Of a DNA stretch of 45,491 nucleotides, positions 2,742 through 44,370 are shown piece after piece; position 1 is the stretch's first letter; every line of letters starts with the position of its first letter. Source of the stretch: a virus. The stretch covers positions 1-45,491 of the IMG/VR virus record IMGVR_UViG_3300030019_000057; one strand, 5' to 3'. Position numbers and translations under genes: made by a program. The notes beneath the pieces are model-generated. The model had not been told where the DNA came from, searched no databases, and worked only from the letters and a program-made list of their open reading frames with translations.

Positions 2742-4244
2742 ATGAAAGACTTTCCATTATTTATTTCACCAAGATTAAAATCTAAATTAGCACTAATGAA
2801 TCATCGTATTGCTAAGGATTTATTATCTATAAGTAACGAACTTGATGAAAAATTTAATCAAACATTTATTGACATTGATGATGATTTTAATTATGTGTCA
2901 TTTATTCAGTCTAACAAAGCTATTCAACTATTAAATGCTGATGAAAATAGTTTTGATTCATATTCATTCCGTGACCATTGTTATTACGCAAAAGAAAACG
3001 ATGAAATATATACTAAATATAGAAGTCGTGTTAAATGGGGAAGATTTTTAAATACAAATTTCCCCGATAAATACAAAAATAGTATATCGGGTGGACAAAA
3101 TGAAGAAGATATTGAATCATTTATCAATAAGTTTAAAGCATTATGTGACAGGGAAGCTAAATTCGGTTTAATGGATATTGTTTCAGGTGCAAAAATTGGA
3201 TATTGGTATAATGCACGTAGATATTTTAACAATGACTATGGTACATTGTCGAATTCATGTATGAAAAATGTTAGTGTAGCTTATTTTAATATCTATATTA
3301 AGAATCCAGATAAATGTAAAATGCTTATCATGTATTCTGATGATACAAAAAGGTTTATTAAAGCACGTGCATTAGTTTGGATGTTAGATGAACCAGTTAA
3401 TAGAGTGTTCATGGATAGAGTTTATACAAATGATTATTCTGATGAACAAATATTCATTGATTACGCTAAAGCTAATAATTGGATTTATAAAGTATCACAA
3501 TCAATGGGATATGATATAAAACTTATTGACCCAAGTGAAAATGAATTAGAAAGTGTTAATATTGATATGTTTGTTAATATTAATAAAATTAGATTCTACA
3601 AATATCCATATTGTGATACTTTTTCACTTTTAAATAAAAGTAAAGCAAAACTTGGTAATAATTATAAACATACACCTAATATGATTTTGACATATACTGG
3701 TGGTGATTATGGAACATTGGATGTTGTTTATAGCAATTTTCATGGTAGTAGTATCAACAGAGAAGATGCTATTTGGTGTGAATTAGGTCAAGATTGGGTT
3801 CGTCAAGGTACTGAAATAAGAGTATTTAATACTGAAAGACAATTTGCAACACCAGACTATAAAGGTATAGTTGAAATGACATTTGAATATAATGGTAAAA
3901 TTGTTAAAAAACATTTTTTGAAAAATAAATGTGTTTGGTCTAAATATTTAAATACTTGGATTTTCAATGAAAGTGTAGTATCAGTTAATCTTGATTTGAA
4001 GAAAGAAAAAACTGGTCTTGACCATTCAAGACGTGTTGGTTATGGTTTTTTTGAAGTTGATGGTGAAAATTGGGCAACAAATTTATTTTATCAAAAAGAA
4101 AATAGACTTTTTACACAAGAAGAGCTTGATTCAAATGATGTGTCAAAACCACGTGGATGGCACCGTAGACGTTCTTATGTTGATGATATGGGTAACGTTT
4201 ATAGATTTGGTGATTTACTAAATAAAACCGTTGAAAACGATTAA
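2742..4244 (+). CDS. Paralog A of a three-member phage protein family of unknown function
   Basis: 500 aa. It is clearly homologous to the proteins at 4630-6084 and 21620-23329. Shared segments in order: an N-terminal FPLFISPRL helix followed by HRIAKDLLSI (1-30); GGQNEEDIESF near 118-128; SCM at 172-174; YxNxYIKNPDKCKMLIMYSDDTK (181-203); RALVW at 209-213; FMDRVYT at 223-229; WxYKxSQSMG near 247; a PYCDT motif near 290; then Trp-Cys/Trp-Ser repeats (IWCELGQDWV near 345, CVWSKYLNTW near 395). The family has no function I can assign. This copy begins directly at the shared N-terminal helix, whereas the other two have 15-20 extra residues. It has its own strong promoter (2668-2698). Bases 3407-3454 are identical to 5355-5402 in paralog B. 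Confidence 0.9.
   Translation: MKDFPLFISPRLKSKLALMNHRIAKDLLSISNELDEKFNQTFIDIDDDFNYVSFIQSNKAIQLLNADENSFDSYSFRDHCYYAKENDEIYTKYRSRVKWGRFLNTNFPDKYKNSISGGQNEEDIESFINKFKALCDREAKFGLMDIVSGAKIGYWYNARRYFNNDYGTLSNSCMKNVSVAYFNIYIKNPDKCKMLIMYSDDTKRFIKARALVWMLDEPVNRVFMDRVYTNDYSDEQIFIDYAKANNWIYKVSQSMGYDIKLIDPSENELESVNIDMFVNINKIRFYKYPYCDTFSLLNKSKAKLGNNYKHTPNMILTYTGGDYGTLDVVYSNFHGSSINREDAIWCELGQDWVRQGTEIRVFNTERQFATPDYKGIVEMTFEYNGKIVKKHFLKNKCVWSKYLNTWIFNESVVSVNLDLKKEKTGLDHSRRVGYGFFEVDGENWATNLFYQKENRLFTQEELDSNDVSKPRGWHRRRSYVDDMGNVYRFGDLLNKTVEND
3407..3454 (+). repeat. 48-bp direct repeat, copy 1 (within paralog A)
   Basis: Identical base for base to 5355-5402, including synonymous positions. It encodes the FMDRVYTNDYSDEQI segment. 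The flanking coding sequence has drifted, so an uninterrupted 48-bp match suggests recent gene conversion, a recombination point or selection on the DNA itself. Confidence 0.85.
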
Positions 4245-4285
4245 AATATTAAACTTTATAATAAAAAAGTAATATATAACAAAAT

Positions 4286-4304
4286 ACATGTGATAATCGC
4301 ATGT
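4286..4304 (+). terminator. Short hairpin after paralog A, possible weak terminator
   Basis: ACATGTGA / TCGCATGT arms (one G-U pair) around a TAA loop, followed by TTTAAATT. The stem is only 8 bp and the T-run is poor, so it may instead be a 5'-leader hairpin of the lipoprotein gene 25 bases downstream. Confidence 0.35.
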
Positions 4305-4328
4305 TTAAATTAAAAATAATAAAAGAAA

Positions 4329-4493
4329 ATGAAAAAAGTAATTATGTTCGCAATTGTTGTAATTGCATTGTCTCTAAGTTCATGTGGAAAATCTGTACAA
4401 AATGCAGGTGTAGCAACTGATAGTACAACAACTGTTGTAGATTCGCTTTCAAGTGATTCAATTCCTAATATTGACACAGTAACTGTTAAGTAA
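4329..4493 (+). CDS. Small lipoprotein
   Basis: 54 aa: a Lys-Lys start, a hydrophobic stretch (VIMFAIVVIALSLS), then the lipobox LSSC with C19 as the predicted lipidated residue, followed by a short Ser/Thr/Asp-rich mature part of 36 residues. This is a typical Bacteroidota lipoprotein signal, handled by Lgt and signal peptidase II. The mature part has no recognisable domain and no acidic run immediately after the cysteine. It sits between two paralogs and is closed by tandem terminators. Small phage lipoproteins can act in superinfection exclusion; that role is only a suggestion here. Confidence 0.8.
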   Translation: MKKVIMFAIVVIALSLSSCGKSVQNAGVATDSTTTVVDSLSSDSIPNIDTVTVK

Positions 4494-4511
4494 TACAACA
4501 CTTGTTTAAAT

Positions 4512-4573
4512 AAAAATGAAGATTAATATTCTTCATTTTTATTAAAAATGAAATTCTTTTGGATTTCATTTTT
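4512..4573 (+). terminator. Tandem hairpin terminators
   Basis: Two consecutive hairpins: arms 4512-4521 / 4531-4540 (AAAAATGAAG / CTTCATTTTT, 9-base loop) and arms 4544-4554 / 4563-4573 (AAAAATGAAAT / ATTTCATTTTT, 8-base loop), the second followed by more T. The near-identical stems suggest duplication. They separate the lipoprotein gene from paralog B. Confidence 0.8.
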
Positions 4574-4629
4574 TTTCGTATAATTTAAATTCTAAGTTTT
4601 ATATATATACCTAAAAGAAATATTTTAAT

Positions 4630-6084
4630 ATGATAGTTAAGTATGACAAATATATGGATGTAATTAAAATTACAGAAGCATTAAGAACATTTCCATTGTT
4701 CTTATCAGATAGATTAAAAAAAGTATTAGCTAATATTGACCATGATATAGCATCTGAATTATTGGCATTACATTCAGACTTAGATTCAAGAGTTCCAAAA
4801 ACTTTTATTGATATACATGAAGAAAAATCAAATTTTTTTACATTCTCACAACCAAATAAAGCAATCATTACATTAGGATTAAATCTTACTACTGATGATG
4901 AAATAGAAGCTAATAAAGATGAAATTTTAGCTAAATATAATAGTATGGGTGATGAAGTATATAAAAAATTTAGAAGTGAAGTAAGAATAGGAAGTTTAAT
5001 AAGAGATATATTCCGTGATAAATTTCCTGAAAGTATACCAGGTGGACAAAATAAAAAAGATATAGAATCATTTGTTAATTTATACAAAGCAGAATACAGT
5101 GAAGATGAAAAATTTAAATTATTCGATATTGTTAAAGGTGAACAAATAAGTTATTATTATAACCGTGCTAAATATTGTGAAGGTGGTGGTTCTTTAGGTG
5201 GATCTTGTATGCAAAGTGTACCAGCTTATTATTTTGATATTTATACTAAAAATCCTGAAAAGGTTAGTATGTTAATAATGTATTCAGATGATACAAAAAA
5301 TAAAATCAAAGGTAGAGCAATAGTATGGAAATTAGATTCACCAAGAGGTAGAACGTTCATGGATAGAGTTTATACAAATGATTATTCTGATGAACAAATA
5401 TTTATAAACTATGCAATAAAAAATAATTGGATATACAAAGAATCACAATCTATGGGTTCTGATGTTGAATTGATTGATGTAACCATTAACGATGAACCAA
5501 GAGAAATTGATATGGTTATAGATTTAGCATCCAGACGTTATGATTCATTCCCATATTGTGATACAATGACCTTTATGAATACATATAATAATACATTATC
5601 AAATTCAGATGAACATGATCCAAGTCGTATATTAATAGATACGGATGGTGGTTATGAAAATTATGATGAAAGTGAATATCAAAGTGACGATGTTTACAGT
5701 GATTATAATGGTGAAAATATTGACAGAGATGATGCAAAATGGTGTGAATTAGGTCAAGATTGGGTTAGAAGTAATCAAGCAGTAAGAATATTCAATACAG
5801 GTCCTGTTACTTATGCTATACCTGATTACCCTGGTGTAGTTAAACAGACTGTTACAGTTAATGGTGAAATAAAAATAAAACATTTTATGGAAAAGGATTG
5901 TGTTTGGTCTGATTTTTTAAACACCTTTTTATATAAATCAAGTGCAATTAATGTTTGGAAGGATAAGGAAAAAACAAATTGGATTTTAGAATACAAAAAA
6001 AGAAAAGATGAAACTTTCTATGAAATAGATGGTGAAAATTACGCAAAAGAATTAGTTGATACAGAAACAATGACATTAAAATAA
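4630..6084 (+). CDS. Paralog B of the three-member family
   Basis: 484 aa, homologous along its whole length to paralog A: FPLFLSDRL helix (21-29), PGGQNKKDIESF (137-148), SLGGSCM (188-194), YFDIYTKNPEKVSMLIMYSDDTK (201-223), GRAIVW (228-233), FMDRVYT (243-249), then PYCDT, AKWCELGQDWV and CVWSDFLNTF units toward the C-terminus. Compared with paralog A it has a 20-residue N-terminal extension (MIVKYDKYMDVIKITEA) that resembles a phage capsid-targeting peptide with an ITE|A cleavage-like site. A later start at residue 9 is possible. The ankyrin gene follows after 8 bases, so the two are cotranscribed. Function unknown. Confidence 0.9.
   Translation: MIVKYDKYMDVIKITEALRTFPLFLSDRLKKVLANIDHDIASELLALHSDLDSRVPKTFIDIHEEKSNFFTFSQPNKAIITLGLNLTTDDEIEANKDEILAKYNSMGDEVYKKFRSEVRIGSLIRDIFRDKFPESIPGGQNKKDIESFVNLYKAEYSEDEKFKLFDIVKGEQISYYYNRAKYCEGGGSLGGSCMQSVPAYYFDIYTKNPEKVSMLIMYSDDTKNKIKGRAIVWKLDSPRGRTFMDRVYTNDYSDEQIFINYAIKNNWIYKESQSMGSDVELIDVTINDEPREIDMVIDLASRRYDSFPYCDTMTFMNTYNNTLSNSDEHDPSRILIDTDGGYENYDESEYQSDDVYSDYNGENIDRDDAKWCELGQDWVRSNQAVRIFNTGPVTYAIPDYPGVVKQTVTVNGEIKIKHFMEKDCVWSDFLNTFLYKSSAINVWKDKEKTNWILEYKKRKDETFYEIDGENYAKELVDTETMTLK
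5355..5402 (+). repeat. 48-bp direct repeat, copy 2 (within paralog B)
   Basis: Same sequence as 3407-3454 in paralog A, 1,948 bases away and in the same reading frame of the homologous gene. Confidence 0.85.
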
Positions 6085-6092
6085 AAAATATT

Positions 6093-6701
6093 ATGAAAAA
6101 CATTACGCATTATAACGAATTTGGGTGTGAATCAAAGAAAGATAAGGTAGTAGATGAAGAATCAAGTACCAAGTTGGATTTAATCAAAAAAGAGCCAAAT
6201 AAGCAATTAATAAGGGCAGCGATAGACGGTAGTCTAATTGATATTAAAAGCTCCTTAAAATACGGTGCAGACATCAATTATAACCATAGTGAAGCACTAA
6301 CAGCAGCAGCAGAATTTAATAATATTAAAATCGTTAGATATTTAGTAGAAAATGGTGCTATTATAACAGCAAATGATAATGCTGCATTATGGGCTGCTTG
6401 TGTAGAGGGAAATATTAATATTGTTAAATATTTAGTAGAAAATGGTGCTAAAATAGAAGATAAATGTTTAATCTATGCTATTAGAGAAGAAAACATAGAA
6501 GTAGTTAACTATTTATTAGAAAATGGTGCAAATGTAAATGCTAAAGAAAATTCACCTATAACTGCTGCGGTTAAAAAAGATAATATTAAATTAGTGAAGA
6601 TGTTATTAGATAATGGTGCAAAAGTAACTGATATGTTATTAAAAACTGCTGATAGATATTCATCAGATAATCTAATAGATTTATTAGCAGATAATATATA
6701 A
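6093..6701 (+). CDS. Ankyrin-repeat protein
   Basis: 202 aa. From about residue 36 to the end the protein consists of ~33-residue ankyrin units with recognisable A-x-x-G/x-N-x-x-I/V-V-x-Y/M-L-V/L-E/D-N-G-A signatures (RYLVENGA, KYLVENGA, NYLLENGA, KMLLDNGA): about five to six repeats, the first and last degenerate. Ankyrin arrays bind proteins. The leader MKNITHYNEFGCES resembles the N-termini of probable virion proteins later in the window and T4 capsid-targeting peptides. It is placed 8 bases after paralog B and shares a bidirectional terminator with the convergent AAA+ gene. Confidence 0.92.
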   Translation: MKNITHYNEFGCESKKDKVVDEESSTKLDLIKKEPNKQLIRAAIDGSLIDIKSSLKYGADINYNHSEALTAAAEFNNIKIVRYLVENGAIITANDNAALWAACVEGNINIVKYLVENGAKIEDKCLIYAIREENIEVVNYLLENGANVNAKENSPITAAVKKDNIKLVKMLLDNGAKVTDMLLKTADRYSSDNLIDLLADNI

Positions 6702-6743: not shown

Positions 6744-7934
6744 TTATGCTTCCATATTCGGAACATGCTTCAAAATTGCATCATAGAATTTTTCAAATCT
6801 ATCATCTGATAAGAATTCTTCAAGCATATCATTTTCATCATCATTACTTTTCATATACTTGTAATCACTATCCAAGATTTTCAAAATAAATGATACTGCT
6901 TCGTCTTCCGATAAGATAAGAACGAATTTCTTAACATTTTCCTTTTGCTTTTTTGTCCAAAGTCTGAAATCCATACCTTTTAAGGTATTAAGTAATTCAG
7001 ATTTTTTATCACGTGAAATATCTTTTAACATATCCTGTATTTCATCATAACGGTCAAGCAAATCACGAACACCAAATCGTAAACTTTCATCCAAGAAACG
7101 AATAAATCTTGTTGCTGCACCATTACCTACATAAGATGCTGCTAATTCACGAATATCATTCGACCAATCACGAATACTTGAATTCATTCCGTAATTCTTA
7201 ACGATATAATCAGAAAGGAATGTCCAAGACCGAGGGGTTGCATAAGCAGCAGAATCTTTAGAACGTCTTTCATCAAAACTATGAAGAAAATGTTCTTCGT
7301 TTGACTTCAAAAAACTTACAACTACGGGATGAACGTTTTCAGTTGCAAAGTCAGAAACCCATTCAGGAAGTGTAAGCGTATGCGACATGTGAATAAGACG
7401 ATTATTAAGCGCTCTATCAAATTCTTCTACATCAGTACCATCAGCATCACCTAAGTTACCAGATGAAACCATGAAAACCCCATCATTGAACTGAAAATCA
7501 GAACCAATTGCACGTTCAAGTAATATTTGTAAAGCTGCATTTCGAACAGCTAATGGAGCACGGTTTAATTCTTCAAAGTGAATAAGGGTTGGTTGCTGAT
7601 TTGCTTCATATGCCCATTTAGGAATAGCATAAGCCATCAGACTTATTATCTTTTTTACGCTTTCTTTACCACCATCTTCTAAATCAATAGTAGCATCAAC
7701 TTCACAATCTTCACGATATGGGAATAAACCTACGTCAATTTCGTCAACCATTGACAAACGAACATCTTTATACACAAAACCAAGTTTTTTAGCAATTGTT
7801 TTCATGATTGCAGACTTAGCTACACCTGGTTCCGCTGTTATAAACAATACACCAGATTGTGCATACATAATACGGAAATACTTCTTTTGACGTTCCGTTA
7901 ATAATTGAAATTTTTCTTCTTCTACTTTAAACAT
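6744..7934 (-). CDS. MoxR-like AAA+ ATPase
   Basis: 396 aa. Walker A is AEPGVAKS at 34-41, Walker B with the MoxR-type extension HFEELNRA at 119-126, sensor-1-like SSGN near 158, and the arginine-finger-like region FDRALNNR near 175. This architecture belongs to the MoxR/AAA_5 group, whose members usually remodel a protein partner together with a VWA-domain (MIDAS) protein. No VWA protein lies next to it here; the gene stands alone, convergent to the ankyrin gene and driven by two tandem promoters (7973-8004 and 8065-8095). The C-terminal ~150 residues are helical and unassigned. All core ATPase motifs look intact. Confidence 0.9.
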   Translation of the reverse strand: MFKVEEEKFQLLTERQKKYFRIMYAQSGVLFITAEPGVAKSAIMKTIAKKLGFVYKDVRLSMVDEIDVGLFPYREDCEVDATIDLEDGGKESVKKIISLMAYAIPKWAYEANQQPTLIHFEELNRAPLAVRNAALQILLERAIGSDFQFNDGVFMVSSGNLGDADGTDVEEFDRALNNRLIHMSHTLTLPEWVSDFATENVHPVVVSFLKSNEEHFLHSFDERRSKDSAAYATPRSWTFLSDYIVKNYGMNSSIRDWSNDIRELAASYVGNGAATRFIRFLDESLRFGVRDLLDRYDEIQDMLKDISRDKKSELLNTLKGMDFRLWTKKQKENVKKFVLILSEDEAVSFILKILDSDYKYMKSNDDENDMLEEFLSDDRFEKFYDAILKHVPNMEA

Positions 7935-21619: not shown

Positions 21620-23329
21620 TTATATATTTTTGTATTTTCTATGATTTTTACTATCAAACATACGTAATTGACCTGTTTTTTTATCGAGTGCTCTTTTATC
21701 ATCAAAGAAATAAACATTATTACCATCTTTAAAAATAGAATCTTTATCCCAAACTATATGTTTTATTATATTATAATTAGTATCATTTAATTTCGCAGTA
21801 ACAAAATAATTACTACATTCTTCTTCACCAAAATAATAAGTATTAATACCTACTACATATTCAAAGGTGTCACTGTTTTCTTGTCCTCTTGATTCTGTTG
21901 GTGCTTTTTCTTTACATTCTTCAAAAGTATCGAAATCAGCATCTAAGAATACATCTACTATATCAGAATCTAAAATATAATCTTCATTATAATCCACATA
22001 TGAAGATTTATAAATTTCAACATAAGCATCATGGTATTCACTCCAATGCATATTATCATCAATATAATCTTGTGTTGCATATATATCAGAACCTTCAAAT
22101 GTTTCAATTGCATCATCGTCTGTTCTATATTCACCACCTAATTCACACCATTGTAAATTATCATTATCAATCCAGTCATCATAAAAATCAACATAAGTTT
22201 CCCCATAATGGTCATCGTCATCATCGTAACCATTATATTTTTCATAATCATCACCTTGTGTTCCATCTAATCTAAAATATTCATCATCAGTTTTTGAATC
22301 TATATAATCTTTCTGATTAGATACGGTTTCTATTTCAGGTGAATAATATTTCATTGTATCGCAATATGGGTATTCGTCATTTTCTGTAACTGTTTCACGT
22401 GTTACAAGAAGTATTTTACCTAAATTTTCATCTGTTTTCCCATCCATGATGAATTCATCTTCATCCATGTTCTGTTTAAACTTGTATAACCATTCATTTT
22501 TAGAAGCATAATTTTTAAATAATTCAACTGCATTTTCATTAGTAGTATAAATTCTATCCATAAATGTTCTATCAGGTGTTGCTAATTTCCATACAATTGC
22601 TCTACCTGTTATTTTAGTTCTATCAGAACCATGTAATATAAGTAAACTAACATCTTCGTTTTTAGCATAAAATTCTAAATAACTTTGACACCTATCATAA
22701 CGCATACAAGAACCACCTAAACTACCAACTTCTTCTTCGTAATGTGTTCCAAGATACCAATATTTAATATCTTCACCACTAACTAATTCAAAATCATTAC
22801 TTTCACCCTTAGCTCTATAACCATAAACCATGTTAACAAATGAAGTAACATCATTACCTTCATCACCAGCATTTACAAATTTTTTATCAAAAATTTTTGT
22901 AATAAATGCACCTACTTTAATAGGTGTTCTTGATTTTTTCCAATAATCTAAGTTCATATCACCATCAGAAGGTGTTTTTTCCTTTAAAGTATTTTTAACT
23001 GTTTCATAATCTAATGAGTTTAATCTTTTACCATCATAATATTTAAGTATATTATCATATACTTTATTTGAATTAACAAATGTAAATCTTTTAAAAATAA
23101 CATCATCTTCATCATTAGGTGAAAATTCTTTAGTATCAAAATCAATAAACGTCATTTTACTATCACTTCTTTCAGTATCTAATTTTAATAGTTCTGTTGC
23201 AATTGGATGATTTATTTCATTTAATAATTTTCTGAGTCTTTCACTTAATATAAATGGTAATTCACTTACCTTAACATTTTCTAATAACAGTTGAAATAAA
23301 TGTTCACTATATCCTTCTAATAAATTCAT
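21620..23329 (-). CDS. Paralog C of the three-member family, longest copy
   Basis: 569 aa. Shares with the plus-strand copies the ELPFILSERLRKLLNEINHPIATELL helix pair (~18-43), an SLGGSCMR motif near 205, LEFYAKNEDVSLLILHGSDRTKITGRAIVW near 218-247, FMDRIYTTN near 255, WLYKFKQNMDED, YPYCDTM, and C-terminal W-C/W-S units (LQWCELGGEYRTDDDA, MHWSEYHDAYVE). It differs by a 17-residue leader, a very acidic Asp/Tyr-rich insertion before the Trp-Cys units (YNGYDDDDDHYGETY), and an extra C-terminal ~80 residues. It lies 15 kb away on the opposite strand with its own terminator. Unknown function. An apparent His-rich frame on the plus strand is its antisense shadow. Confidence 0.9.
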   Translation of the reverse strand: MNLLEGYSEHLFQLLLENVKVSELPFILSERLRKLLNEINHPIATELLKLDTERSDSKMTFIDFDTKEFSPNDEDDVIFKRFTFVNSNKVYDNILKYYDGKRLNSLDYETVKNTLKEKTPSDGDMNLDYWKKSRTPIKVGAFITKIFDKKFVNAGDEGNDVTSFVNMVYGYRAKGESNDFELVSGEDIKYWYLGTHYEEEVGSLGGSCMRYDRCQSYLEFYAKNEDVSLLILHGSDRTKITGRAIVWKLATPDRTFMDRIYTTNENAVELFKNYASKNEWLYKFKQNMDEDEFIMDGKTDENLGKILLVTRETVTENDEYPYCDTMKYYSPEIETVSNQKDYIDSKTDDEYFRLDGTQGDDYEKYNGYDDDDDHYGETYVDFYDDWIDNDNLQWCELGGEYRTDDDAIETFEGSDIYATQDYIDDNMHWSEYHDAYVEIYKSSYVDYNEDYILDSDIVDVFLDADFDTFEECKEKAPTESRGQENSDTFEYVVGINTYYFGEEECSNYFVTAKLNDTNYNIIKHIVWDKDSIFKDGNNVYFFDDKRALDKKTGQLRMFDSKNHRKYKNI

Positions 23330-24713: not shown

Positions 24714-25643
24714 TTATTTTATAAATGAAAAAATATGTGCAATTGAATCTACTGTCCACCCCATTCCTAACATTCTTGTTCTTTGGTTATCACTAACACA
24801 TGATGTATAACCAAGTGGAACAGTTTGTAATTTTTCACATTCTGTTGGTGTTAACCAACGATATTCAACTTGGTCTAATGACCTACGTGGTCCTTTATTT
24901 TTAACAACTACATTATCCTTTCTAACAGTTGTCAAACAATTAGATTTATTATCACTCCTACATTCAATATATTGCTTAATAGGTATTTCCCTGTTATAAT
25001 CACTTCTTGAATTTTTATCGGGATCAATTCGTCTACCACGCATTGCACCACAAAACCAACCTTCACCAACAACATCAGTTATAGTTATATTTCTATCTTC
25101 TGGTACCGTCACATCGGGTATATTAGTCCAATAGAACCGTTTTCTTTCTTGTGCTGACACTAATCTACTATTAATATAAATCGGTTCAACACCTAACGTT
25201 TCTGTTATTATATTCTTCCACTTATCAACCATCCGTACATTTTCTAAAAGAAAATAAGTTGGTTTAACTTCCTTCAATAATCTTACGTATTCCCAAAACA
25301 AAAAAGATTCACCTTCAAATTCAAACCCATCTTCTTTTAATTGTAGATAAGTTTCTAAATCAGTTATTTCTATTTTATCTTTTGTTACCATTCCTATTCT
25401 TTTACCAGCGAAAGAAAAATCTGTACATGGACTACCACCAATTAGTAAATCAATCTTAGGTAAGTTAGTTGAATCCAACTTAGTTACATCACCTAATTGT
25501 ATTGTATTTGGGTAGTTTGTTTGTGTAACTTTCATAGCAAACTTATCAATTTCTGCTGCAAAATAGTTATCGTATTTAATACCCACCCTATTTAGTGCAA
25601 TTTGACCATTTGACATTCCATCAAATAAACTTAATATATTCAT
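24714..25643 (-). CDS. C5-cytosine DNA methyltransferase 1
   Basis: 309 aa. Motif I LSLFDGMSNGQIAL (4-17), motif IV GGSPCTDFS with nucleophile C73, motif VI LLENV, motif VIII AQERKRFYW, motif IX LTPTECEKLQTVP, and motif X MLGMGWTVDSIAHI. It transfers a methyl group from SAM to cytosine C5 in double-stranded DNA. After PCT it carries an insertion with TDLETYLQLKEDGFEF, also present in copies 3 and 4 but absent from copy 2. The target-recognition region (between VIII and IX) includes GWFCGAMRGRRID and SNCLTT and is unlike the others. The start overlaps the stop of copy 2 by one base. No restriction enzyme is adjacent, so it is probably an orphan, protective enzyme. Confidence 0.95.
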   Translation of the reverse strand: MNILSLFDGMSNGQIALNRVGIKYDNYFAAEIDKFAMKVTQTNYPNTIQLGDVTKLDSTNLPKIDLLIGGSPCTDFSFAGKRIGMVTKDKIEITDLETYLQLKEDGFEFEGESFLFWEYVRLLKEVKPTYFLLENVRMVDKWKNIITETLGVEPIYINSRLVSAQERKRFYWTNIPDVTVPEDRNITITDVVGEGWFCGAMRGRRIDPDKNSRSDYNREIPIKQYIECRSDNKSNCLTTVRKDNVVVKNKGPRRSLDQVEYRWLTPTECEKLQTVPLGYTSCVSDNQRTRMLGMGWTVDSIAHIFSFIK

Positions 25644-26524
25644 TATAATTCTATGTTTTTAAAAATATGTGCAATAACATCAACAGTCCAACCATTTCCT
25701 AATGCGTTCATGCTATGTCCGTAACTTACACATTGCGTATAACCTTCTGGTACTGTCTGTAATTTTTCTAATTCTGAAACAGTTAATATTCTAAAATCAT
25801 ATTTCCCATTTGGTACTTTAGTATTAAACCTAAAAACTTCATTTGGATTTTTACCTTTTGCAAAGGACATATTAATTTTACCTTCTTTAACTTCATATTT
25901 ACCATTTTCATTTGGTATATAAACGACATTAGATTGACTTTTTTTAAAGTAATCCCTTAATGTACCAGCATGTAATGTTAAACAGTATGCTTTATCTTTG
26001 TCTGTTATACCATCATTCAAAATACTTTGTAATGTAATACCTTTATCTTCGGGTACTGTTACATTAGGTATATTAGTCCAATATAACCGTTTTCTGTTTT
26101 GTGCTGATACTACATTTGAATTTATTAATATTGGTTCAACACCTAAATATTGTGTTATTATATTTTCATATTCTTTATTCATAACAACATTTTCCAAAAG
26201 AAAATATTTAGGTTTTAATTCATCTTTAAGTCTAATGAATTCAAAAAATAATTTACTACGTGGATCTTCAAAATTTAACTGTTTACCCGCAAAAGAAAAT
26301 CCCTGACATGGCGAGCCCCCAATTAATAGATCAATTGTAGGTAAATTACATCCTTCGATTTTAGTTACATCACCCAATTGTACGGTATTTGGATAATTAG
26401 TTTGTGTGATAAACATTGCATCTTGATTTATTTCTGCTGCAAAATACTTATCATATTTAATACCTACTCTATTCAATGCGATTTGACCGCATGATTGACC
26501 ATCAAATAAACTTAATACATTCAT
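25643..26524 (-). CDS. C5-cytosine DNA methyltransferase 2
   Basis: 293 aa, the shortest copy. Motif I LSLFDGQSCGQIAL, motif IV GGSPCQGFS (C73, canonical PCQ), LLENV, AQNRKRLYW, LTVSELEKLQTVP and ALGNGWTVDVIAHI are all present. It lacks the TDLETY insertion of the other copies and runs straight from FAGKQLNFEDPRSKLFFEF. The target-recognition part (CLTLHAGTLRDYFKKSQSNV, then GKINMSFAKGKNPNEVFRFN) differs from all neighbours, so a different recognition site is expected. Cotranscribed with copies 1 and 3. Confidence 0.95.
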   Translation of the reverse strand: MNVLSLFDGQSCGQIALNRVGIKYDKYFAAEINQDAMFITQTNYPNTVQLGDVTKIEGCNLPTIDLLIGGSPCQGFSFAGKQLNFEDPRSKLFFEFIRLKDELKPKYFLLENVVMNKEYENIITQYLGVEPILINSNVVSAQNRKRLYWTNIPNVTVPEDKGITLQSILNDGITDKDKAYCLTLHAGTLRDYFKKSQSNVVYIPNENGKYEVKEGKINMSFAKGKNPNEVFRFNTKVPNGKYDFRILTVSELEKLQTVPEGYTQCVSYGHSMNALGNGWTVDVIAHIFKNIEL

Positions 26525-26530
26525 GTTTAA

Positions 26531-27499
26531 TTATATTTTTATATGTGAAAAAATATGTGCTATAACATCGACAGTCCAACCATTACCAAGCATTTTATAT
26601 CTACCTGTTGTTGATACAGCTTTAGTATAGTTATCAGGAACAGTTTGAAGACGTTCACATTCAATTACACTTAATCTACGTAACCTTAAAGGACCTGCTT
26701 TAGTATCTTCTATAATATTACAACTACCACCTGCATTATTACCACCACTTGCACTTAATGAACTTCCTTTACAATAAGGTGAAAAAACCCTATCACCTTG
26801 ATGTACTGATAATTTTCCAATGACACAACTTTTTGTTTTATCCATCACAAAACTTCGGTTAATCATATAACGTTCATATAATTTTTCAGCTAAAAATAAT
26901 TTTTCGTCTGGTTCATCTTCAAGAATATCTTCAAGATGAATATTTTTATTTTCGGGAAGTTGAACATTTGGTATATTAGTCCAATACAAACGTTTTCTAT
27001 CTTGTGCTGATACCGATGCACTGTTAATGAAAATAGGTTTAACACCCAATGTTTCAGAAATAATATTTTCCCATTTCTTAACCATCACAACATTTTCCAA
27101 AAGAAAATATTTTGGTTTAACTTCTTTTAGTAATCGTACATATTCCCAAAATAGAAATGATTGACCTTTAAAAGTAAATCCTTCACCTTTTAATTTTAGA
27201 TATGTTTCTAAATCTGTTACTTCAACATCCGATTCTTCTGTAACCATACCATATCTTTTTCCCGCAAAAGAAAAATTAGTACACGGACTACCACCGAACA
27301 TTAAATCAATTTTAGGTAAAGTATACCCATCAACTTTCATAACATCACCAATTTGCTTGGTCTTAGGGTAATTATCTTGGGTAACTAATATCGCATTTGT
27401 ATCTATTTCAGATGCAAAATACGTATCATATTTAATACCTAATCTGTTCAATGCGATTTGACCGCATGACTGACCATCAAATAAACTTAATACATTCAT
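26531..27499 (-). CDS. C5-cytosine DNA methyltransferase 3
   Basis: 322 aa, the longest copy. Motifs LSLFDGQSCGQIAL, GGSPCTNFS (C73), LLENV, AQDRKRLYW, LSVIECERLQTVP and MLGNGWTVDVIAHI are intact. The insertion after motif IV (TDLETYLKLKGEGFTFKG) is present. The recognition region is long and Gly/Ser-rich (SLSASGGNNAGGSCNIIEDT). The first 50 or so bases of the gene are almost identical to copy 2, pointing to recent duplication or exchange with replacement of the recognition region. Confidence 0.95.
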   Translation of the reverse strand: MNVLSLFDGQSCGQIALNRLGIKYDTYFASEIDTNAILVTQDNYPKTKQIGDVMKVDGYTLPKIDLMFGGSPCTNFSFAGKRYGMVTEESDVEVTDLETYLKLKGEGFTFKGQSFLFWEYVRLLKEVKPKYFLLENVVMVKKWENIISETLGVKPIFINSASVSAQDRKRLYWTNIPNVQLPENKNIHLEDILEDEPDEKLFLAEKLYERYMINRSFVMDKTKSCVIGKLSVHQGDRVFSPYCKGSSLSASGGNNAGGSCNIIEDTKAGPLRLRRLSVIECERLQTVPDNYTKAVSTTGRYKMLGNGWTVDVIAHIFSHIKI

Positions 27500-27517
27500 T
27501 ATTTATATTTTAATTTG

Positions 27518-27721
27518 TTATTCTACTATTGATTCTTGAATTTCTATGACTTTCGGAATATCCAAACTAATTTCAGCACAAGATGTAACCTTTTCATATG
27601 ATTTAACCTTTACTTTTATTAATTCATTTGCGTGTTTTAAATCAGTTGCTATTACTAAATAACTACCACCACACATTTCCCATCTATCACCAGTCGTTGT
27701 TGTATATAAAAATATTTTCAT
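27518..27721 (-). CDS. Hypothetical small protein
   Basis: 67 aa, alpha/beta (KIFLYTTTTGDRWEMCGGSYLVIATD, then KHANELIKVKVKSYE). It resembles the size and layout of small phage accessory domains, but I do not recognise it. One base after the 59 aa gene, 18 bases before methyltransferase 3. Confidence 0.8.
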   Translation of the reverse strand: MKIFLYTTTTGDRWEMCGGSYLVIATDLKHANELIKVKVKSYEKVTSCAEISLDIPKVIEIQESIVE

Positions 27722-27722
27722 T

Positions 27723-27902
27723 TTATTTATATTTTAATTTGCTACTTAATAGTTGTATATCAGTATATGCAACACACATACTATCTATAACTTTCAATTC
27801 GTTTTCATCTGTAACTTTTTCTTCTAAAAAAGTTTTTAGATATTCTAATCTATCAATTAATGTTGATACATCTTCGACCATTTTATCTTTATATAAACCC
27901 AT
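27723..27902 (-). CDS. Hypothetical small helical protein
   Basis: 59 aa (MGLYKDKMVEDVSTLIDRLE at the start, LLSSKLKYK at the end), fully helical. It is the first gene of the unit that continues with the 67 aa gene and methyltransferases 3, 2 and 1; the promoter at 27920-27950 lies 18 bases upstream. The TAA is followed after one base by the next ATG, which supports it being a real gene despite its size. Confidence 0.78.
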   Translation of the reverse strand: MGLYKDKMVEDVSTLIDRLEYLKTFLEEKVTDENELKVIDSMCVAYTDIQLLSSKLKYK

Positions 27903-27919
27903 AATTTTATTATTTTTTA

Positions 27920-27950
27920 CAAAGATAGTATAAAATTTTTAATTATCAAA
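27920..27950 (-). promoter_or_regulatory. Bacteroidota-type promoter of the methyltransferase array
   Basis: Minus strand: TTTG (27950-27947), 19 bases, TATCTTTG (27927-27920); the context ACATTTTGATAAT is the extended form. The -33 box overlaps the TTT-TGA end of methyltransferase 4, so copy 4 is outside this unit or reads into it. Confidence 0.88.
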
Positions 27951-28869
27951 ATGTTTTTGGTAAAAAACTAAAGATATGTGCAACTGATTCAGCAGTCCAT
28001 CCATTTCCTAACATTTTTCTACGTTGTGTTTTACTTACACATTTAGTATAATTATCAGGTAAAGTTTGTAATCTTTCGAATTCTACACAGCTCATAAACC
28101 TTAAACCATCTTCATCTTGATACACATGGTCTTTCATATTTTTATAGCATGTTGCTACAATACATTCCGCTTTTTCTGTTTCAGGTGTATTAAACATTTT
28201 AGAAACAAATCCTTTTTTCATTCTACCTGCAATATAATTTACACGTGCTTCTGTTGGTATTTCTAAATCTAATAGTGAATCAGTCCTTGGAATTAATATA
28301 TCCTTCAATAATATACCCCTATCTTCTGGTACTGTTACATTAGGTATGTTAGTCCAATATAATCTTGTTCTTTTTTGTGCGGAAACTAAACGTGAATCAA
28401 TTTTAATTGGTTCTACACCCAATGTATCTGAAATTACTTTTTTCCATTTTGCAGACATTCTTACATTTTCAAGTAAAAAATAAGTGGGTTTAACTTCTTT
28501 CATTATTCTAATATATTCCCAAAACAAATAACTTTGTCCAGTGAATTCAAACCCATCTGCTTTTAAACGAAGATAAGTATCCAAATCAGTAATTTCTATC
28601 TTATCAGTAGTTATCATACCCCTTGCACGTCCAGCAAAAGAAAAATCAGTACATGGACTACCACCTATCATTAAATCAATCTTAGGTAAAGTATAACCAT
28701 TTACTTCTTTAACATCACCTATTTCAATCGTATTAGGGTGATTATCTTTAGTAACCATAATAGCATATTTATCTATTTCAGATGCACGATAACTATCATA
28801 ATTTATACCTGCTTTTTTTAAAGCTACTTGTCCAACCGACATCCCATCAAATAAACTTAGTACATTCAT
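27946..28869 (-). CDS. C5-cytosine DNA methyltransferase 4
   Basis: 307 aa, the most divergent in motif I (LSLFDGMSVGQVALKKA) but complete: GGSPCTDFS (C73), LLENV, AQKRTRLYW, MSCVEFERLQTLP and MLGNGWTAESVAHI. It carries the TDLDTYLRLKADGFEFTG insertion as in copies 1 and 3. The recognition region (ARVNYIAGRMKKGFVSKMFN, then ECIVATCYKNMKDHVYQ) is unrelated to the other three. Stop is TGA. It is separated from copies 1-3 by two small genes and a promoter, and no consensus promoter is evident in the 104 bases upstream. Confidence 0.95.
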   Translation of the reverse strand: MNVLSLFDGMSVGQVALKKAGINYDSYRASEIDKYAIMVTKDNHPNTIEIGDVKEVNGYTLPKIDLMIGGSPCTDFSFAGRARGMITTDKIEITDLDTYLRLKADGFEFTGQSYLFWEYIRIMKEVKPTYFLLENVRMSAKWKKVISDTLGVEPIKIDSRLVSAQKRTRLYWTNIPNVTVPEDRGILLKDILIPRTDSLLDLEIPTEARVNYIAGRMKKGFVSKMFNTPETEKAECIVATCYKNMKDHVYQDEDGLRFMSCVEFERLQTLPDNYTKCVSKTQRRKMLGNGWTAESVAHIFSFLPKTF

Positions 28870-37036: not shown

Positions 37037-37789
37037 TTATTTATCATTCTTTTCATCATAGTATTTATACAGTGCTTTAGTTAGTCTATTCTTCTCCATT
37101 TCAGACAATAAGTTATACTTACGGAACTTACTCTTGAATTGATTTAATACGTCCTTAAAATCAGCATTAAAATCCAAATCTTCTATTGTCTCAGTAAATC
37201 TTGCCCATTGTTCATGTGGAAGTTTAAAATATAATTCCTGTGCTATTTTGTTTGTTTCTAATCCCCTTTCATCTACTTCTTTTCTATATTCATCAGTCTT
37301 TTTATTTCTTGAATACTTTCCCTTCGACCTAAAATAATCATAAGCATGTTGTAATTCATGTGCTAACACCTTTCTATATGTCATTGATAATGCATTTTTA
37401 AGAATATCATTAGGTGTTTTATATTTAACACGACATATTTGTAGATTTTTATTAAATTGTTCAAGTTTTATATTTACTACTATTGAACCCTTATCTTCAT
37501 ATTCATCTTCACCTTCTTCCATAAATACTGCAACATTTCTTTCACTGTCAATTTTACTAAATTCAATTACTAATTCAAATTCTGTGATAAATGGAATAAG
37601 TATTTTATAATCACTTGGATTATATATCATATCAATTAAATTCTTACTTATATAATCATCTTCTTTTAGTTCTTTATAAAAAACAGAACTTCTTTCACCA
37701 AAATAAGTAATAACTTGGTCAGCTAATAAATATATTTCATCTATTTCGTTATGTCCTTCATTAATGAACATATTAAAATCAGTTATCAT
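37037..37789 (-). CDS. Putative HExxH zinc metalloprotease, probable virion-associated
   Basis: 250 aa. HELQHAYDYFRS at 144-155 supplies HExxH; the following helices (Lys/Asp/Glu-rich, with DEYRKEVDERGLETNKIA near 164-181) may provide the third ligand, E168 or E173 being candidates. Residues 1-11, MITDFNMFINEG, resemble a T4-type capsid-targeting leader with an x-x-E|G cleavage-like site, so it may be packaged and injected. The domain before the HExxH is acidic and beta-type. Not assigned to a named peptidase family. Stop codon adjoins the shared terminator. Confidence 0.78.
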   Translation of the reverse strand: MITDFNMFINEGHNEIDEIYLLADQVITYFGERSSVFYKELKEDDYISKNLIDMIYNPSDYKILIPFITEFELVIEFSKIDSERNVAVFMEEGEDEYEDKGSIVVNIKLEQFNKNLQICRVKYKTPNDILKNALSMTYRKVLAHELQHAYDYFRSKGKYSRNKKTDEYRKEVDERGLETNKIAQELYFKLPHEQWARFTETIEDLDFNADFKDVLNQFKSKFRKYNLLSEMEKNRLTKALYKYYDEKNDK

Positions 37790-37815
37790 AGGAATATTTT
37801 TTCTTTTATATATAA

Positions 37816-37845
37816 AAAAAAGACTATTGTTTAATAGTCTTTTTT
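37816..37845 (-). terminator. Hairpin terminator fused to the CDF stop codon
   Basis: AAAAAAGACTATT (37816-37828) and AATAGTCTTTTTT (37833-37845) with loop GTTT; the stop codon of the transporter lies in the loop/right arm. It ends the transporter gene ahead of the protease gene. Confidence 0.9.
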
Positions 37846-38727
37846 GTTTTCTGATTTAATATGTTCTTCTGTATGTGGTTCCACATGTATATATATTTCA
37901 CTCCTTGGAATTATATCATGTAAATCTTGTTCTATCTTATCACATATCTTATGACCGTTGGATACTGATATACGTGGGTTTAAATGCAAGTCAAATTTAA
38001 TAAAGGTATCTGCACCTGCTGAACGTAATTTAAGGTCGTGATAACACATAATATCAATATTATTATCCAAATAGTTTTTAACTATATTTCTACTATCTTT
38101 TGGTGCTTTATCTAATAAAACATCAATTGCTCTTTTACCTAAGTTATAAGATACACCTAAAACAACTAACGCAACCCCTAATGCTGCTATTGAATCTGCT
38201 AAGTACCAATTAAAGTTAGATAGAATTAATCCTGTTAAAACTACAAATGAACTTAATATATCAGTTGAAAAATGCAATGCATCAGCTTCTAATGCTTGAC
38301 TATTCGTTTCCTTTGCTATCTTATGTAATTTCTTTGCACGATTATAATCTACTAAAATAGATGTTACAATAACAATATAACTCCATATACTTATTTCAAT
38401 ATGGGTATTCCCCGACATAATTCGAGATATAGCTTCATTTATAATCCATACACAAGTTATAAGTAATAAAACGGTTTCAATTAAAGCTGATAGATTTTCT
38501 ATTTTACCATGTCCATAGTTATGTTCAGTATCTGCTGGTTTATCTGACACACGAACTGCAATATATGTTACAATAGCTGCAACCATATCTAAGGTAGAAT
38601 GTAATGCTTCTGACAATATACCCAAACTACCAGTAACTAACCCAATAATCAATTTAAAAATAGTTAAAAATGCTGATGCAAAAACCGACATTAATGCAAT
38701 ACTTCTTTTTTCTTTGCTCTTATTCAT
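37831..38727 (-). CDS. Cation diffusion facilitator (CDF) zinc transporter
   Basis: 298 aa, normal for the family. Signature GSLGILSEALHSTLDM (33-48), HNYGHGKIENLSALIE (69-84), six predicted membrane helices, then the C-terminal ferredoxin-like cytoplasmic domain (~210-285). The transport site is H43-x3-D47 in TM2 and H152-x3-D156 in TM5; the HxxxD/HxxxD arrangement is the one associated with zinc-selective members, whereas FieF has D in TM2. It exports divalent metal in exchange for protons across the inner membrane. A complete metal-efflux pump is rare in phages. It has its own promoter and terminator, so it is a self-contained cassette. Confidence 0.96.
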   Translation of the reverse strand: MNKSKEKRSIALMSVFASAFLTIFKLIIGLVTGSLGILSEALHSTLDMVAAIVTYIAVRVSDKPADTEHNYGHGKIENLSALIETVLLLITCVWIINEAISRIMSGNTHIEISIWSYIVIVTSILVDYNRAKKLHKIAKETNSQALEADALHFSTDILSSFVVLTGLILSNFNWYLADSIAALGVALVVLGVSYNLGKRAIDVLLDKAPKDSRNIVKNYLDNNIDIMCYHDLKLRSAGADTFIKFDLHLNPRISVSNGHKICDKIEQDLHDIIPRSEIYIHVEPHTEEHIKSENKKDY

Positions 38728-38750
38728 ATTTTGGTTTTAAATTTAGAATA

Positions 38751-38781
38751 CAAAGATAATAATAAAAAATGAAACTACAAA
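38751..38781 (-). promoter_or_regulatory. Bacteroidota-type promoter of the CDF transporter
   Basis: Minus strand: TTTG (38781-38778), 19 bases, TATCTTTG (38758-38751), 24 bases before the start at 38727. Confidence 0.88.
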
Positions 38782-38826
38782 ATAAAGAAGAAATATATTA
38801 TAAATAAATAGTATATAAGTTATATA

Positions 38827-39753
38827 TCATGATCTTGCATCTTTTTTGTCAGTTTCTATTTGTGCTAAGAACATTTCTTGTTCAGATTTTCTTCTATTAT
38901 TCAATCCACCAAACTTTCCACTGTTTCTGGTAGATGGTATAAGTTGTGCAGCAGCGATAAAATCACCTGTTTTTAAAACATCTGTAAATTCACTATTTCT
39001 GAAACCACTAACACCCATATTATATACCATAGAAACCATAGAATCATACATAGATTGTGTTATTTCCATGTCAGTTCCTTCTTGTTTCCATTGGTCAAAC
39101 ATTCTTTTAACACCATCTTCTGCTACTTTCAAGTCAGCTCTAAGTAATTCATCAGCTTTTTCTTCGGTAATATGTTGACCTATTTTAAATTTTGATTTTT
39201 TTATTGGTTCAGCATGTCCATATCCTATTGTTACTTTACCATCACCTATACTATATCCTACTAATTTTAATTTTTCGTGTTGTTTAATAGAATCAATTCC
39301 ATTTTCAGAAATAGTAAGGTGTTGTGGGTCTTTTTCTTTATATACAATTGGTGCTTTTACATTAGGTTCTTTATGATGACTAAAAAAATCAAAGAATTTA
39401 AATATTGATTTTAATGTTATATGTTCATCTTGTGCAACTTTTTCTATTTCCTTATCATTTATTACATTAGTTGCATTAATTTTTTCTATTGAAGTGAATC
39501 CCATTGTAGATGTTACATAAATTATAAATAATAATTTAATAATATTTTTCCTTCTTCCTAAGTCTTTTACAGATGTTAGTAAATTAAAAGTTTTATTGAA
39601 TATGTTTTTTAATTGTTCTTTATTAAAGTTTTTTAAATTACTTATATTAAATTCTTCATTTAAACTAATATCAGTATTAAAGTCAATACTATTTAAATTA
39701 AATTCTTCAAATAAAAATCTTTCTACTATATAATCTTCAAAATTCTTAACCAT
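38827..39753 (-). CDS. GH24 (T4-type) lysozyme with N-terminal membrane segment and leader
   Basis: 308 aa. Residues 1-11 (MVKNFEDYIVE) look like a capsid-targeting leader; ~35-65 are helical; ~71-88 form a hydrophobic segment (IIKLLFIIYVTSTMGFTS); ~150-300 form the muramidase domain: IKQHEKLKLVGY with catalytic-type E160, then GDGKVTIGYGHAEP (170-183) with T175. The usual second acid (E-x8-D) falls on I169; D171 two residues later may replace it. QSMYDSMVSMVYNMGVSGFRNS and the closing GGLNNRRKSEQEMF are typical of GH24. It cleaves the NAM-NAG bond of peptidoglycan. The leader and position beside probable virion genes suggest a structural/entry lysozyme rather than a simple endolysin. Confidence 0.9.
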   Translation of the reverse strand: MVKNFEDYIVERFLFEEFNLNSIDFNTDISLNEEFNISNLKNFNKEQLKNIFNKTFNLLTSVKDLGRRKNIIKLLFIIYVTSTMGFTSIEKINATNVINDKEIEKVAQDEHITLKSIFKFFDFFSHHKEPNVKAPIVYKEKDPQHLTISENGIDSIKQHEKLKLVGYSIGDGKVTIGYGHAEPIKKSKFKIGQHITEEKADELLRADLKVAEDGVKRMFDQWKQEGTDMEITQSMYDSMVSMVYNMGVSGFRNSEFTDVLKTGDFIAAAQLIPSTRNSGKFGGLNNRRKSEQEMFLAQIETDKKDARS

Positions 39754-39758
39754 TTTAA

Positions 39759-40523
39759 TTAATCTCTTTTTTTACATCTATATTTAAAATAGAAGAAGTC
39801 GTTATCAACTATTTTGAAAACATTTTCATTACTGTGTATTATTAAAAATGGTTGATTGTCTACATCTAAATTAAATCCTTTAATAGTTATTATTTTTCCC
39901 TTTTTAAATATAGTATTATTACCCAATGCATCTTTTACTTTTAATTCATCTGCTAAAACAACATAATCACCATTATCAGGAACAAACCAATTAAATAAAA
40001 TTTTATATAAATAATTACTTAATTTTAATTTATATTCTACATCTATATAACCGAATCTTGGATCTGTAAATAGATCAGTTGATAATTTTGTTTTATTTAA
40101 ACCATTATAATTACGATAAACCCCAAAAAATTCTTCTTCCATAAATTCAAATGATATAAATACATCAACATTCAATGTATTATTAATGAAAATTCTTAAT
40201 ATTTTTAAATTTTGGTATTCTTCTAAGTCTTCTAAGAAGTAATCTAATTTATGACCAATTATTGATGTACTACCTTGTGCGTATAGGTCTTTCATAACCC
40301 TATTTAAATCTTGCACAACTTGACTCATTCTTGCATAACTATCAAGATAAGGACTACTACCATCTGAATAAATAGACATTTGTGGATCTTGTGCAAATCC
40401 AAATCCAGCACCAAGGGGCATTTGACCCATTTGCATATCCGCAAATTCAGTACTTTCTTTTAATATTTCTTCGGGTAAGTTATCCACTATAAAGCTATAC
40501 TTATTATATTTCAATATATTCAT
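39759..40523 (-). CDS. Probable virion protein of unknown function
   Basis: 254 aa. Starts MNILKYNKYSFIVDNL, followed by EEILKESTEFADMQMGQM, then a Met/Gly/Pro-rich flexible stretch (~30-60) and a beta-rich globular body. The leader style matches the other putative packaged proteins here. I recognise no domain. It shares an AT-rich divergent intergenic region (40524-40615) with the plus-strand block; no TTTG/TAnnTTTG promoter is present there, so late genes may use another signal. Confidence 0.78.
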   Translation of the reverse strand: MNILKYNKYSFIVDNLPEEILKESTEFADMQMGQMPLGAGFGFAQDPQMSIYSDGSSPYLDSYARMSQVVQDLNRVMKDLYAQGSTSIIGHKLDYFLEDLEEYQNLKILRIFINNTLNVDVFISFEFMEEEFFGVYRNYNGLNKTKLSTDLFTDPRFGYIDVEYKLKLSNYLYKILFNWFVPDNGDYVVLADELKVKDALGNNTIFKKGKIITIKGFNLDVDNQPFLIIHSNENVFKIVDNDFFYFKYRCKKRD

Positions 40524-40615
40524 AGTTTGTACTATAATTTTATTTTATATATAAAATTTGCATCATTATATTTTTATATATAATCTATTATTTAAATATA
40601 AAAAATAATAATATT

Positions 40616-40930
40616 ATGGAAAAAAATAACAACACAGTTAATAAAAAAACTATTAAAAAATCAACTATTGAACCACAAGAAATCATTGTTGAAAAAGAAC
40701 CAATATTAGAAACACCTATAAGTGAAATAGTTAAAGAATTACCTAAACTTAAAATATACGAATTATATAAACAAATTATAATTGATGGTAATTCATTTAA
40801 AGTTTATTTAAGGGATGTAATAATTTATGATACTAAAAATAAGGAAAAATACCCTATTTTTGAAGAAGAATATTTTATTGTAGGTGGAAAAAAATATATA
40901 TACAAAGGTACAAGAATAGAAATATATTAA
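40616..40930 (+). CDS. Hypothetical protein
   Basis: 104 aa. A Lys/Asn/Thr-rich disordered N-terminus (MEKNNNTVNKKTIKKST), a Pro/Glu linker, then a beta-rich C-terminal half (FKVYLRDVIIYDTKNKEK; FIVGGKKYIYKGTRIEIY). Short basic phage structural or accessory protein; not recognised. First gene of the final plus-strand block, start context AATAATATTATGG. Confidence 0.82.
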   Translation: MEKNNNTVNKKTIKKSTIEPQEIIVEKEPILETPISEIVKELPKLKIYELYKQIIIDGNSFKVYLRDVIIYDTKNKEKYPIFEEEYFIVGGKKYIYKGTRIEIY

Positions 40931-40948
40931 AAAATATTATAATAAAAT

Positions 40949-43228: not shown

Positions 43229-43239
43229 ACAATAAAAAT

Positions 43240-44370
43240 ATGTTAAAAGAATATAATAGCTTTTTAAATAATGATTTATTAAATGAAGGTGTTACAACAT
43301 CAGCAGAAATAAAAAAATCTATGAGTAATATTGTAAATAATGCTACAAAATCATTAAAAAATATTAAATATAAATATTATAATGAATATACTAATGATAA
43401 ACAAGAAATTGAAGACAAGGGTATTTATTATGCTGTTGTTAGATTTGAACCAAGTGTATTAAGTGAAGAAACAAAAGCAATAGAAAATTTCATTTTTTGG
43501 GTTAAAGTTCAAATTTTATCAAAGTCAACAAAAGAAATTGTTGATATTAATAAAATTCCAATAACTATTTGTCAATATAAAATAGTAGGATATGATGATG
43601 CAATGAGTCAATATTTTGATTTATTAAATAAAAATATATCTGATATTAAATTATTTAAAAATAAAAAAGATTTTTTTGCAAGTAAAATAAATGAAATTCT
43701 TGGTGATAGAGATATAAATGGTTTTTATTTATTTAAATCAAAACAAAATATCACTACTACTATAAGCGATAAATTAAGAATTGATAAATCTGGTTATAAA
43801 GGTGAAATTATTTCTGAAAAAGGTAGTGAAAAACTTACTGGTGTTAGGTCAAAAAAACAACAATTAGGATTATATAAAAATTCACTCGGTAATGTCATTC
43901 TTGTGTTAAATTATAAAGATGATGATGTGAATTATTTAAATTTATCTGATAATAAGTTAGGTGTTATTCAACATGATGAAATGACACAAAAATTTAGAGC
44001 AATAAAGGATAAAGAAAATAAAATATTATCATTATCACCATACATAGAAAGTAAATTATCTGAAAATGATAGTCAACCAGATTTAACAAAGAAAATAAAC
44101 ACGTTGAAATTTTATATAGAAACAGTTAGAATAGCAAACGATAATATTCAAGATGAATTACTCAAAAAAAGTTTAAAAGTATTATTACAAAATATTTTTA
44201 TTAAATATGATGATTTAATAAAAAATATAGTATTAAATAAAACAAGTGATATTAAAAGTAACAAAATACTAAAACAAGCAACTGCTGATATTATTAATTA
44301 TATTAGAATTTTCAATTCAGATAAAATAATTGTAAATATGCTAACTGAATTAAATAAAGTCTTATCTTAA
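43240..44370 (+). CDS. Putative virion protein with capsid-targeting-like leader
   Basis: 376 aa. MLKEYNSFLNNDLLNEGVTT fits the same leader pattern (Y-x-x-F ... L-N-E|G). The body is Lys/Asn/Ile-rich and mostly helical in its last third (~290-376), with a beta-type centre (GVRSKKQQLGLYKNSLGNVILV). No family recognised. 11 bases after the 759 aa gene. Confidence 0.8.
   Translation: MLKEYNSFLNNDLLNEGVTTSAEIKKSMSNIVNNATKSLKNIKYKYYNEYTNDKQEIEDKGIYYAVVRFEPSVLSEETKAIENFIFWVKVQILSKSTKEIVDINKIPITICQYKIVGYDDAMSQYFDLLNKNISDIKLFKNKKDFFASKINEILGDRDINGFYLFKSKQNITTTISDKLRIDKSGYKGEIISEKGSEKLTGVRSKKQQLGLYKNSLGNVILVLNYKDDDVNYLNLSDNKLGVIQHDEMTQKFRAIKDKENKILSLSPYIESKLSENDSQPDLTKKINTLKFYIETVRIANDNIQDELLKKSLKVLLQNIFIKYDDLIKNIVLNKTSDIKSNKILKQATADIINYIRIFNSDKIIVNMLTELNKVLS

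Follow-up and report, generated by a model that had tools for sequence, protein, structure and literature searches.

What are three copies of an uncharacterised gene doing in a single viral fragment? The question is raised by IMG/VR record IMGVR_UViG_3300030019_000057, whose 45,491 nucleotides were analysed as a whole (hereafter the window) and which encodes three related proteins, here called paralogs A, B and C. The answer we favour, at a probability of roughly 0.45, is that they represent one half of a phage-only pair made up of a GNAT-fold protein and a peptidase, and that huge phages amplified the GNAT-like half as effectors that would be packaged in the head and injected into the host. 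Packaging, injection, catalysis and substrate are what we infer; the kinship of the genes, their distribution and their partner gene are observed.

Paralogs A (P0001, 500 amino acids, 2742..4244) and B (P0002, 484 amino acids, 4630..6084) are encoded on the plus strand and paralog C (P0003, 569 amino acids, 21620..23329) on the minus strand. The initial annotation had placed all three open reading frames (ORFs) exactly, leaving the strand of the third unstated. Pairwise BLASTP gives 47% identity between A and B (E 8e-142), 35% between B and C (E 1e-57) and 27% between A and C (E 5e-36), and since these E-values lie far beyond chance, the three genes form one family. The motifs SCM, RAxVW, FMDR[VI]YT, PYCDT and WCELG all recur in the three-way alignment, bearing out the three-member family that had been proposed on such motifs. 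The description of that family as uncharacterised was also correct, as the window copies have no significant match in Pfam, PHROGs, NCBIfam, PADLOC or the PDB sequences, and literature searches returned no earlier account of it from huge phages. A search for related loci queried with a single protein found nothing. A tail-fibre or receptor-binding role was considered as well, and no evidence pointed to it.

By tblastn the family is present in 13 phage records, among them the Cellulophaga crAss-like phages phi38:1 (gp037), phi40:1 and Calle_1/2/3, Thermus phage TSP4, and five records of uncultured phages of 635-735 kb, which have been treated jointly with Mar_Mega_1 (PMC9723777). A survey of methylation in phi38:1 proteins does not mention gp037. 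Copy number differs between these groups: the crAss-like phages and TSP4 carry one or two copies and the 635-735 kb phages 7 to about 15 each, with profile-search matches numbering 8 in LR745206, 16 in LR756501, 15 in LR756504 and 7 in LR756502 (the counts for LR756501 and LR756504 each include one short fragment). The same search finds 1 to 7 copies in each of twelve IMG/VR contigs. A scan of IMG/VR viral contigs yielded 190 relatives, while 84,980 bacterial and archaeal genomes yielded one, on a 6.6 kb contig; within the collections scanned, the family is therefore phage-specific.

The three paralogs share a core, which lies at 3012..3722 in paralog A, 4963..5667 in paralog B (residues 112-346, with SCM, RAIVW, FMDRVYT and PYCDT) and 22220..22939 in paralog C. 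An alignment of 66 members has invariant Y177, S192-C193-M194, N208, R229, W233, D245, R246, Y248, P308, D311 and G340 (paralog B numbering), although SCM, RAxxW and DRxY were preselected here by the ORF filter that demanded them. Because the IMG/VR scan was seeded with the GRAxxW and MDRxY stretches, counts of R-A-x-x-W and DRxY are likewise biased. In the unfiltered profile-search set of 129 family proteins, a literal SCM occurs in 118 and PxxD in 127. AlphaFold2 modelled paralog B with a predicted local distance difference test (pLDDT) score of 93.2 for the whole protein, and of 92.8 for the core, with a predicted template-modelling (pTM) score of 0.87. When both models were compared with the PDB using Foldseek, nearly every top match was a member of the GNAT superfamily (RimI-like, FemX, Eis2, KacT, AtaT), the best for the core having E 6e-3 and probability 0.92. 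The predicted order of secondary structure (b1-a1-a2-b2-b3-b4-a3-b5...) also fits this superfamily, which includes phage Rac and the polyvalent injected GNATs. A GNAT-like core is thus the likely prediction from the models, with a signal that is consistent but weak. There is precedent for the modification of host proteins by phage GNATs (PMC7824862, PMC5512222), yet the present family differs from GNATs in its own invariant set (SCM, R/W, DR/Y, P/D), in having no sequence-profile match to them, and in its multiple copies with exchangeable tails.

The family has a recurrent neighbour, an M20/M28/M42-type zinc peptidase (phrog_4191). This peptidase was present, in 1 to 8 copies, in 8/8 phages first tested, in 8/11 further contigs and in 4/14 records of mostly short fragments, and it directly adjoins a family gene in phi38:1, Calle, TSP4, LR745206, LR756502, LR756501 and contig L042. 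Across 15 genomes, which are partly related and do not amount to 15 independent trials, 9 of 43 peptidase genes are followed by a family gene on the same strand, against 0.73 expected, and none of 5000 shuffles reached 9. Its metal ligands (HxD, D, EE, D) are kept in 34-35 of 35 sequences. The link between family and peptidase is real, both genetically and, as described below, in shared modules. In TSP4, a second family-like protein of 205 amino acids (QAY18143, L007:3752-4366) lies directly upstream of the peptidase, giving the order family-peptidase-family. Long peptidases of L059, L063, L066, L084, L087 and L101 carry an N-terminal extension that weakly resembles the region preceding the family core (hhalign E 1.1e-4, probability 56%).

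A more distant version of the pair probably exists in KP34-like Autographiviridae. Foldseek against viral models matched the window model to a 659-amino-acid hypothetical protein of Klebsiella phage KpV48 (kpv48_08, phrog_6980; E 1.4e-9), whose gene overlaps the start of a phrog_4191 peptidase gene (9.5e-159). The protein keeps SCM, RAI and PYLD and has a W-S-type tail, but it lacks W233, the DRxY motif and the N-terminal peptide described below. As hmmsearch finds no match between phrog_6980 and the family, and hhalign of the core gives E 0.19, the two are tied only by fold, motifs and gene context. Proteins of phrog_6980 occur in 336 phage records. Papers on the KP34-like and phiM1-like genera describe a conserved hypothetical protein just upstream of a putative peptidase (KP34p10/p11 and PhiM1_09/_10), which, judging by gene order, would be the same pair. 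Phage EC22.5-2, whose recorded host is E. coli ATCC 25922, likewise encodes a KP34-type relative of the family protein.

The region past the core is exchangeable between family members. Tails of the window copies (3723..4241 in A, 5668..6081 in B and an acidic region at 21623..22219 in C) consist of W-C/W-S units; about a dozen relatives have instead about eight to twelve CxxCxG repeats like those of DnaJ and BSD2, which the window copies lack, and some members have almost no tail. The same two kinds of module appear on the tails of the peptidases. For the W-C/W-S unit, the better matches between peptidase tails and the family have E 1e-5 to 7e-4, and that of paralog B matches peptidase tails in LR756501 and contig L047 at E 1e-4 and 7e-4; the CxxCxG repeats are common to the family and one partner peptidase (E 6.5e-10). 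An enzymatic core followed by a repeated C-terminal binding region, as first proposed for these proteins, is plausible in a refined form: the core is predicted to be GNAT-like and the tail is a swappable Cys/Trp module found also on the partner peptidase, while the canonical acetyl-CoA motif is missing and catalysis stays conjectural.

Delivery is suggested by the other end of the protein. In the T4 record, the internal head proteins IPII and IPIII begin MKTYQEFIAEA and IPI begins MKTFKEFTSTTTPVSTITEA; in IPIII, residues 4 and 7 serve targeting to the capsid and residues 8 and 10 serve processing (PMC9026906). The IPIII spacing (4, 7, 8, 10) is found at the N-terminus of 41/94 non-redundant huge-phage family members, where shuffling predicts 0.32, and 64/94 have either this strict or a relaxed, IPI-like form, against 3.8 expected. 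None of 30 peptidases and none of 52 ORFs from the crAss-like and TSP4 loci has the strict motif. It does occur on 33/530 ORFs of these contigs that are unrelated to the family (0.84 expected), including several whole clusters, and so flags further candidate virion cargo by sequence alone. Within the window, paralog B has the relaxed form, MIVKYDKYMDVIKITE followed by A (4630..4677), and paralog C has a doubtful start that falls short of it. Most of the phages with the peptide also encode the protease that would cut it: a T4-type head maturation protease (phrog_207) is present in 4/4 huge phages tested and in six contigs, including the sister of the window, and is absent from the crAss-like and TSP4 genomes, so that complete phages without the peptide are also without the protease. 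Among family genes beside a peptidase, those of LR756501, L047 and L042 include some with the peptide, and those of LR745206, LR756502, phi38:1 and TSP4 lack it.

The likeness to T4 IPI, IPII, IPIII and Alt therefore consists of an N-terminal peptide with four key residues spaced alike and of an encoded cognate gp21-type protease, whereas the cargo domain is unrelated, packaging is presumed, and some members have no peptide. Such starts would also be expected if the proteins merely filled the head, as inner-body or core components with no enzymatic role, in the manner of T4 IPIII or the inner-head paralogs of SPN3US, and giant phages do have large and variable families of inner-head paralogs (PMC5694885). 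We regard this as improbable, given that the polar residues of the core are near-invariant and that the single copies of small phages lack the peptide and are paired with a zinc peptidase that is intact.

Several results weigh against an injected GNAT-like effector. On the side of the core, no PDB match of either model reached E <= 1e-3 in Foldseek, and the comparison with GNATs by VIA-align gave Z up to 6.1, below 8 and in the range that the tool rates ambiguous. GNAT motif A, [QR]xxGx[GA], which forms the acetyl-CoA pyrophosphate loop between b4 and a3, is found in 0/66 sequences; the core may thus lack activity or rely on a different donor. Local hhalign against Acetyltransf_1 sequences gave E 0.035 at a probability of 1.5%, and a Pfam scan of the 66 members to E 10 had no GNAT family among the 25 listed of 28 matched. 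With motif A missing in 66/66 and the profile-profile comparison negative, canonical acetyl-CoA chemistry is unsupported. Membership of the FemABX or Leu/Phe-tRNA-protein transferases was rejected too (hhalign E 0.66 for FemAB-like and 0.19 for Leu/Phe), the likeness to FemX being one of fold only. On the side of delivery, the motif counts are inflated by common ancestry within the family, and paralog A has no peptide, beginning directly with the conserved N-terminal domain. No head protease was found in the 45 kb window, which is a fragment, nor in G002, G009 and G011, which encode members with the peptide on contigs that may be incomplete.

The proteins might instead be transferases acting on RNA or DNA, for instance on the aminoacyl-tRNA that FemX, AtaT and KacT use, rather than modifiers of host proteins. 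In favour of this, those three enzymes rank with the best fold matches, and RtcB and tRNA genes lie near the crAss-like copies. The negative profile comparison with FemAB-like and Leu/Phe-tRNA-protein transferases speaks against this, and a peptidase partner and protein-binding modules fit a protein target better; we therefore consider it distinctly unlikely.

The missing motif A also fits a core that only binds. The family members could be non-catalytic GNAT-fold adaptors or co-chaperones, in which a degenerate binding core and Cys/Trp tails bring proteins to a DnaK, ClpP or AAA+ ATPase encoded by phage or host. Consistent with this, about a dozen members carry the DnaJ/BSD2-like repeats, an AAA+ ATPase adjoins both the window pair and the pair of contig L042, and 26 loci have a DnaK gene close to a family gene (15 DnaK clusters at 90% identity, in both orientations), 10 have ClpP within three genes of one, and 7 have DnaJ near one. 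The proximity of these chaperone genes may be functional or inherited synteny, and DnaK adjacency in particular may reflect a single phage lineage; moraphage DnaKs have mostly been traced to Flavobacteriaceae hosts (PMC12619734). The likeness to the cysteine-rich domain of DnaJ and BSD2 is confined to the repeats of those members and of one partner peptidase, as the family has no J-domain and the window copies have W-C/W-S units in their place. A J-domain co-chaperone was rejected, with HPD in 1/108 members. Because the near-invariant polar set of C, R, D, R, Y and D resembles an active site, we hold an adaptor role to be rather unlikely. IMG/VR phage contigs repeatedly encode DnaK, DnaJ and ClpP in the vicinity of family genes (loci L048-L112; L083:4833-5552).

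Under the effector reading that we prefer, the family would act together with the M20/M28-type zinc peptidase encoded alongside it. Its simplest settings are those of Crassvirales, TSP4 and probably the KP34-like Autographiviridae, whereas huge phages have multiplied the GNAT-like half to as many as about 15 copies, most of them bearing a T4-type capsid-targeting-like peptide and many of them interchangeable Cys/Trp tails. Copies with the peptide would most likely enter the head, undergo trimming by the gp21-like protease and leave together with the DNA on ejection. Once inside the host, the core would act on proteins picked by the C-terminal module; the peptidase would stay unpackaged and work in the same pathway. 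T4 Alt and the internal proteins, Rac and the polyvalent GNATs provide precedents for the general idea (PMC9026906, PMC7824862, PMC5512222). A bolder version, which we judge unlikely, makes the pair a two-gene system of protein modification with shared, interchangeable targeting tails, the non-canonical GNAT-fold transferase being the writer and the peptidase the eraser or processor; the transferase would have multiplied and gained head-targeting peptides in the largest phages known, with each virion injecting a panel of modifiers against different host proteins.

Genes of huge phages mostly have no known function, and one of their most expanded families can now be assigned a fold by prediction, together with a partner gene, a probable route of delivery and tractable relatives. 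Should the effector reading hold, the largest phages would deliver a set of paralogous protein modifiers into their hosts. As phi38:1, TSP4 and the KP34-like phages are cultured and carry the peptidase-family pair, its function is testable now.

Around paralogs A and B, the window encodes several smaller features. The small lipoprotein said to lie between them is real, with 54 amino acids and the lipobox LSSC (4329..4493, plus strand). Of the ankyrin-repeat protein reported as cotranscribed with one copy, what stands is its position: the gene (6093..6701) starts on the plus strand 8 bases past paralog B, and its product matches Pfam Ank_2 at 6.8e-25 and has a relaxed capsid-targeting-like start. 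The AAA+ ATPase (phrog_1297) follows at 6744..7934 on the minus strand. Contig L042 is a sister of the window: behind its tandem pair of family genes stand a counterpart of this ATPase, 76% identical, and the same small gene. Further along, a second expanded family occupies 24714-28869 on the minus strand, where four near-tandem ORFs (309, 293, 322 and 307 amino acids) all start MN[VI]LSLFDGxSxGQ and resemble C5-cytosine DNA methyltransferases. Finally, several ORFs with capsid-targeting-like starts at 37037-44370 form a candidate cluster of virion cargo: one resembling a metalloprotease with HELQHAYD (37040-37789), an endolysin (phrog_7, E 4.3e-36; 38830-39753), and two others at 39762-40523 and 43240-44367.

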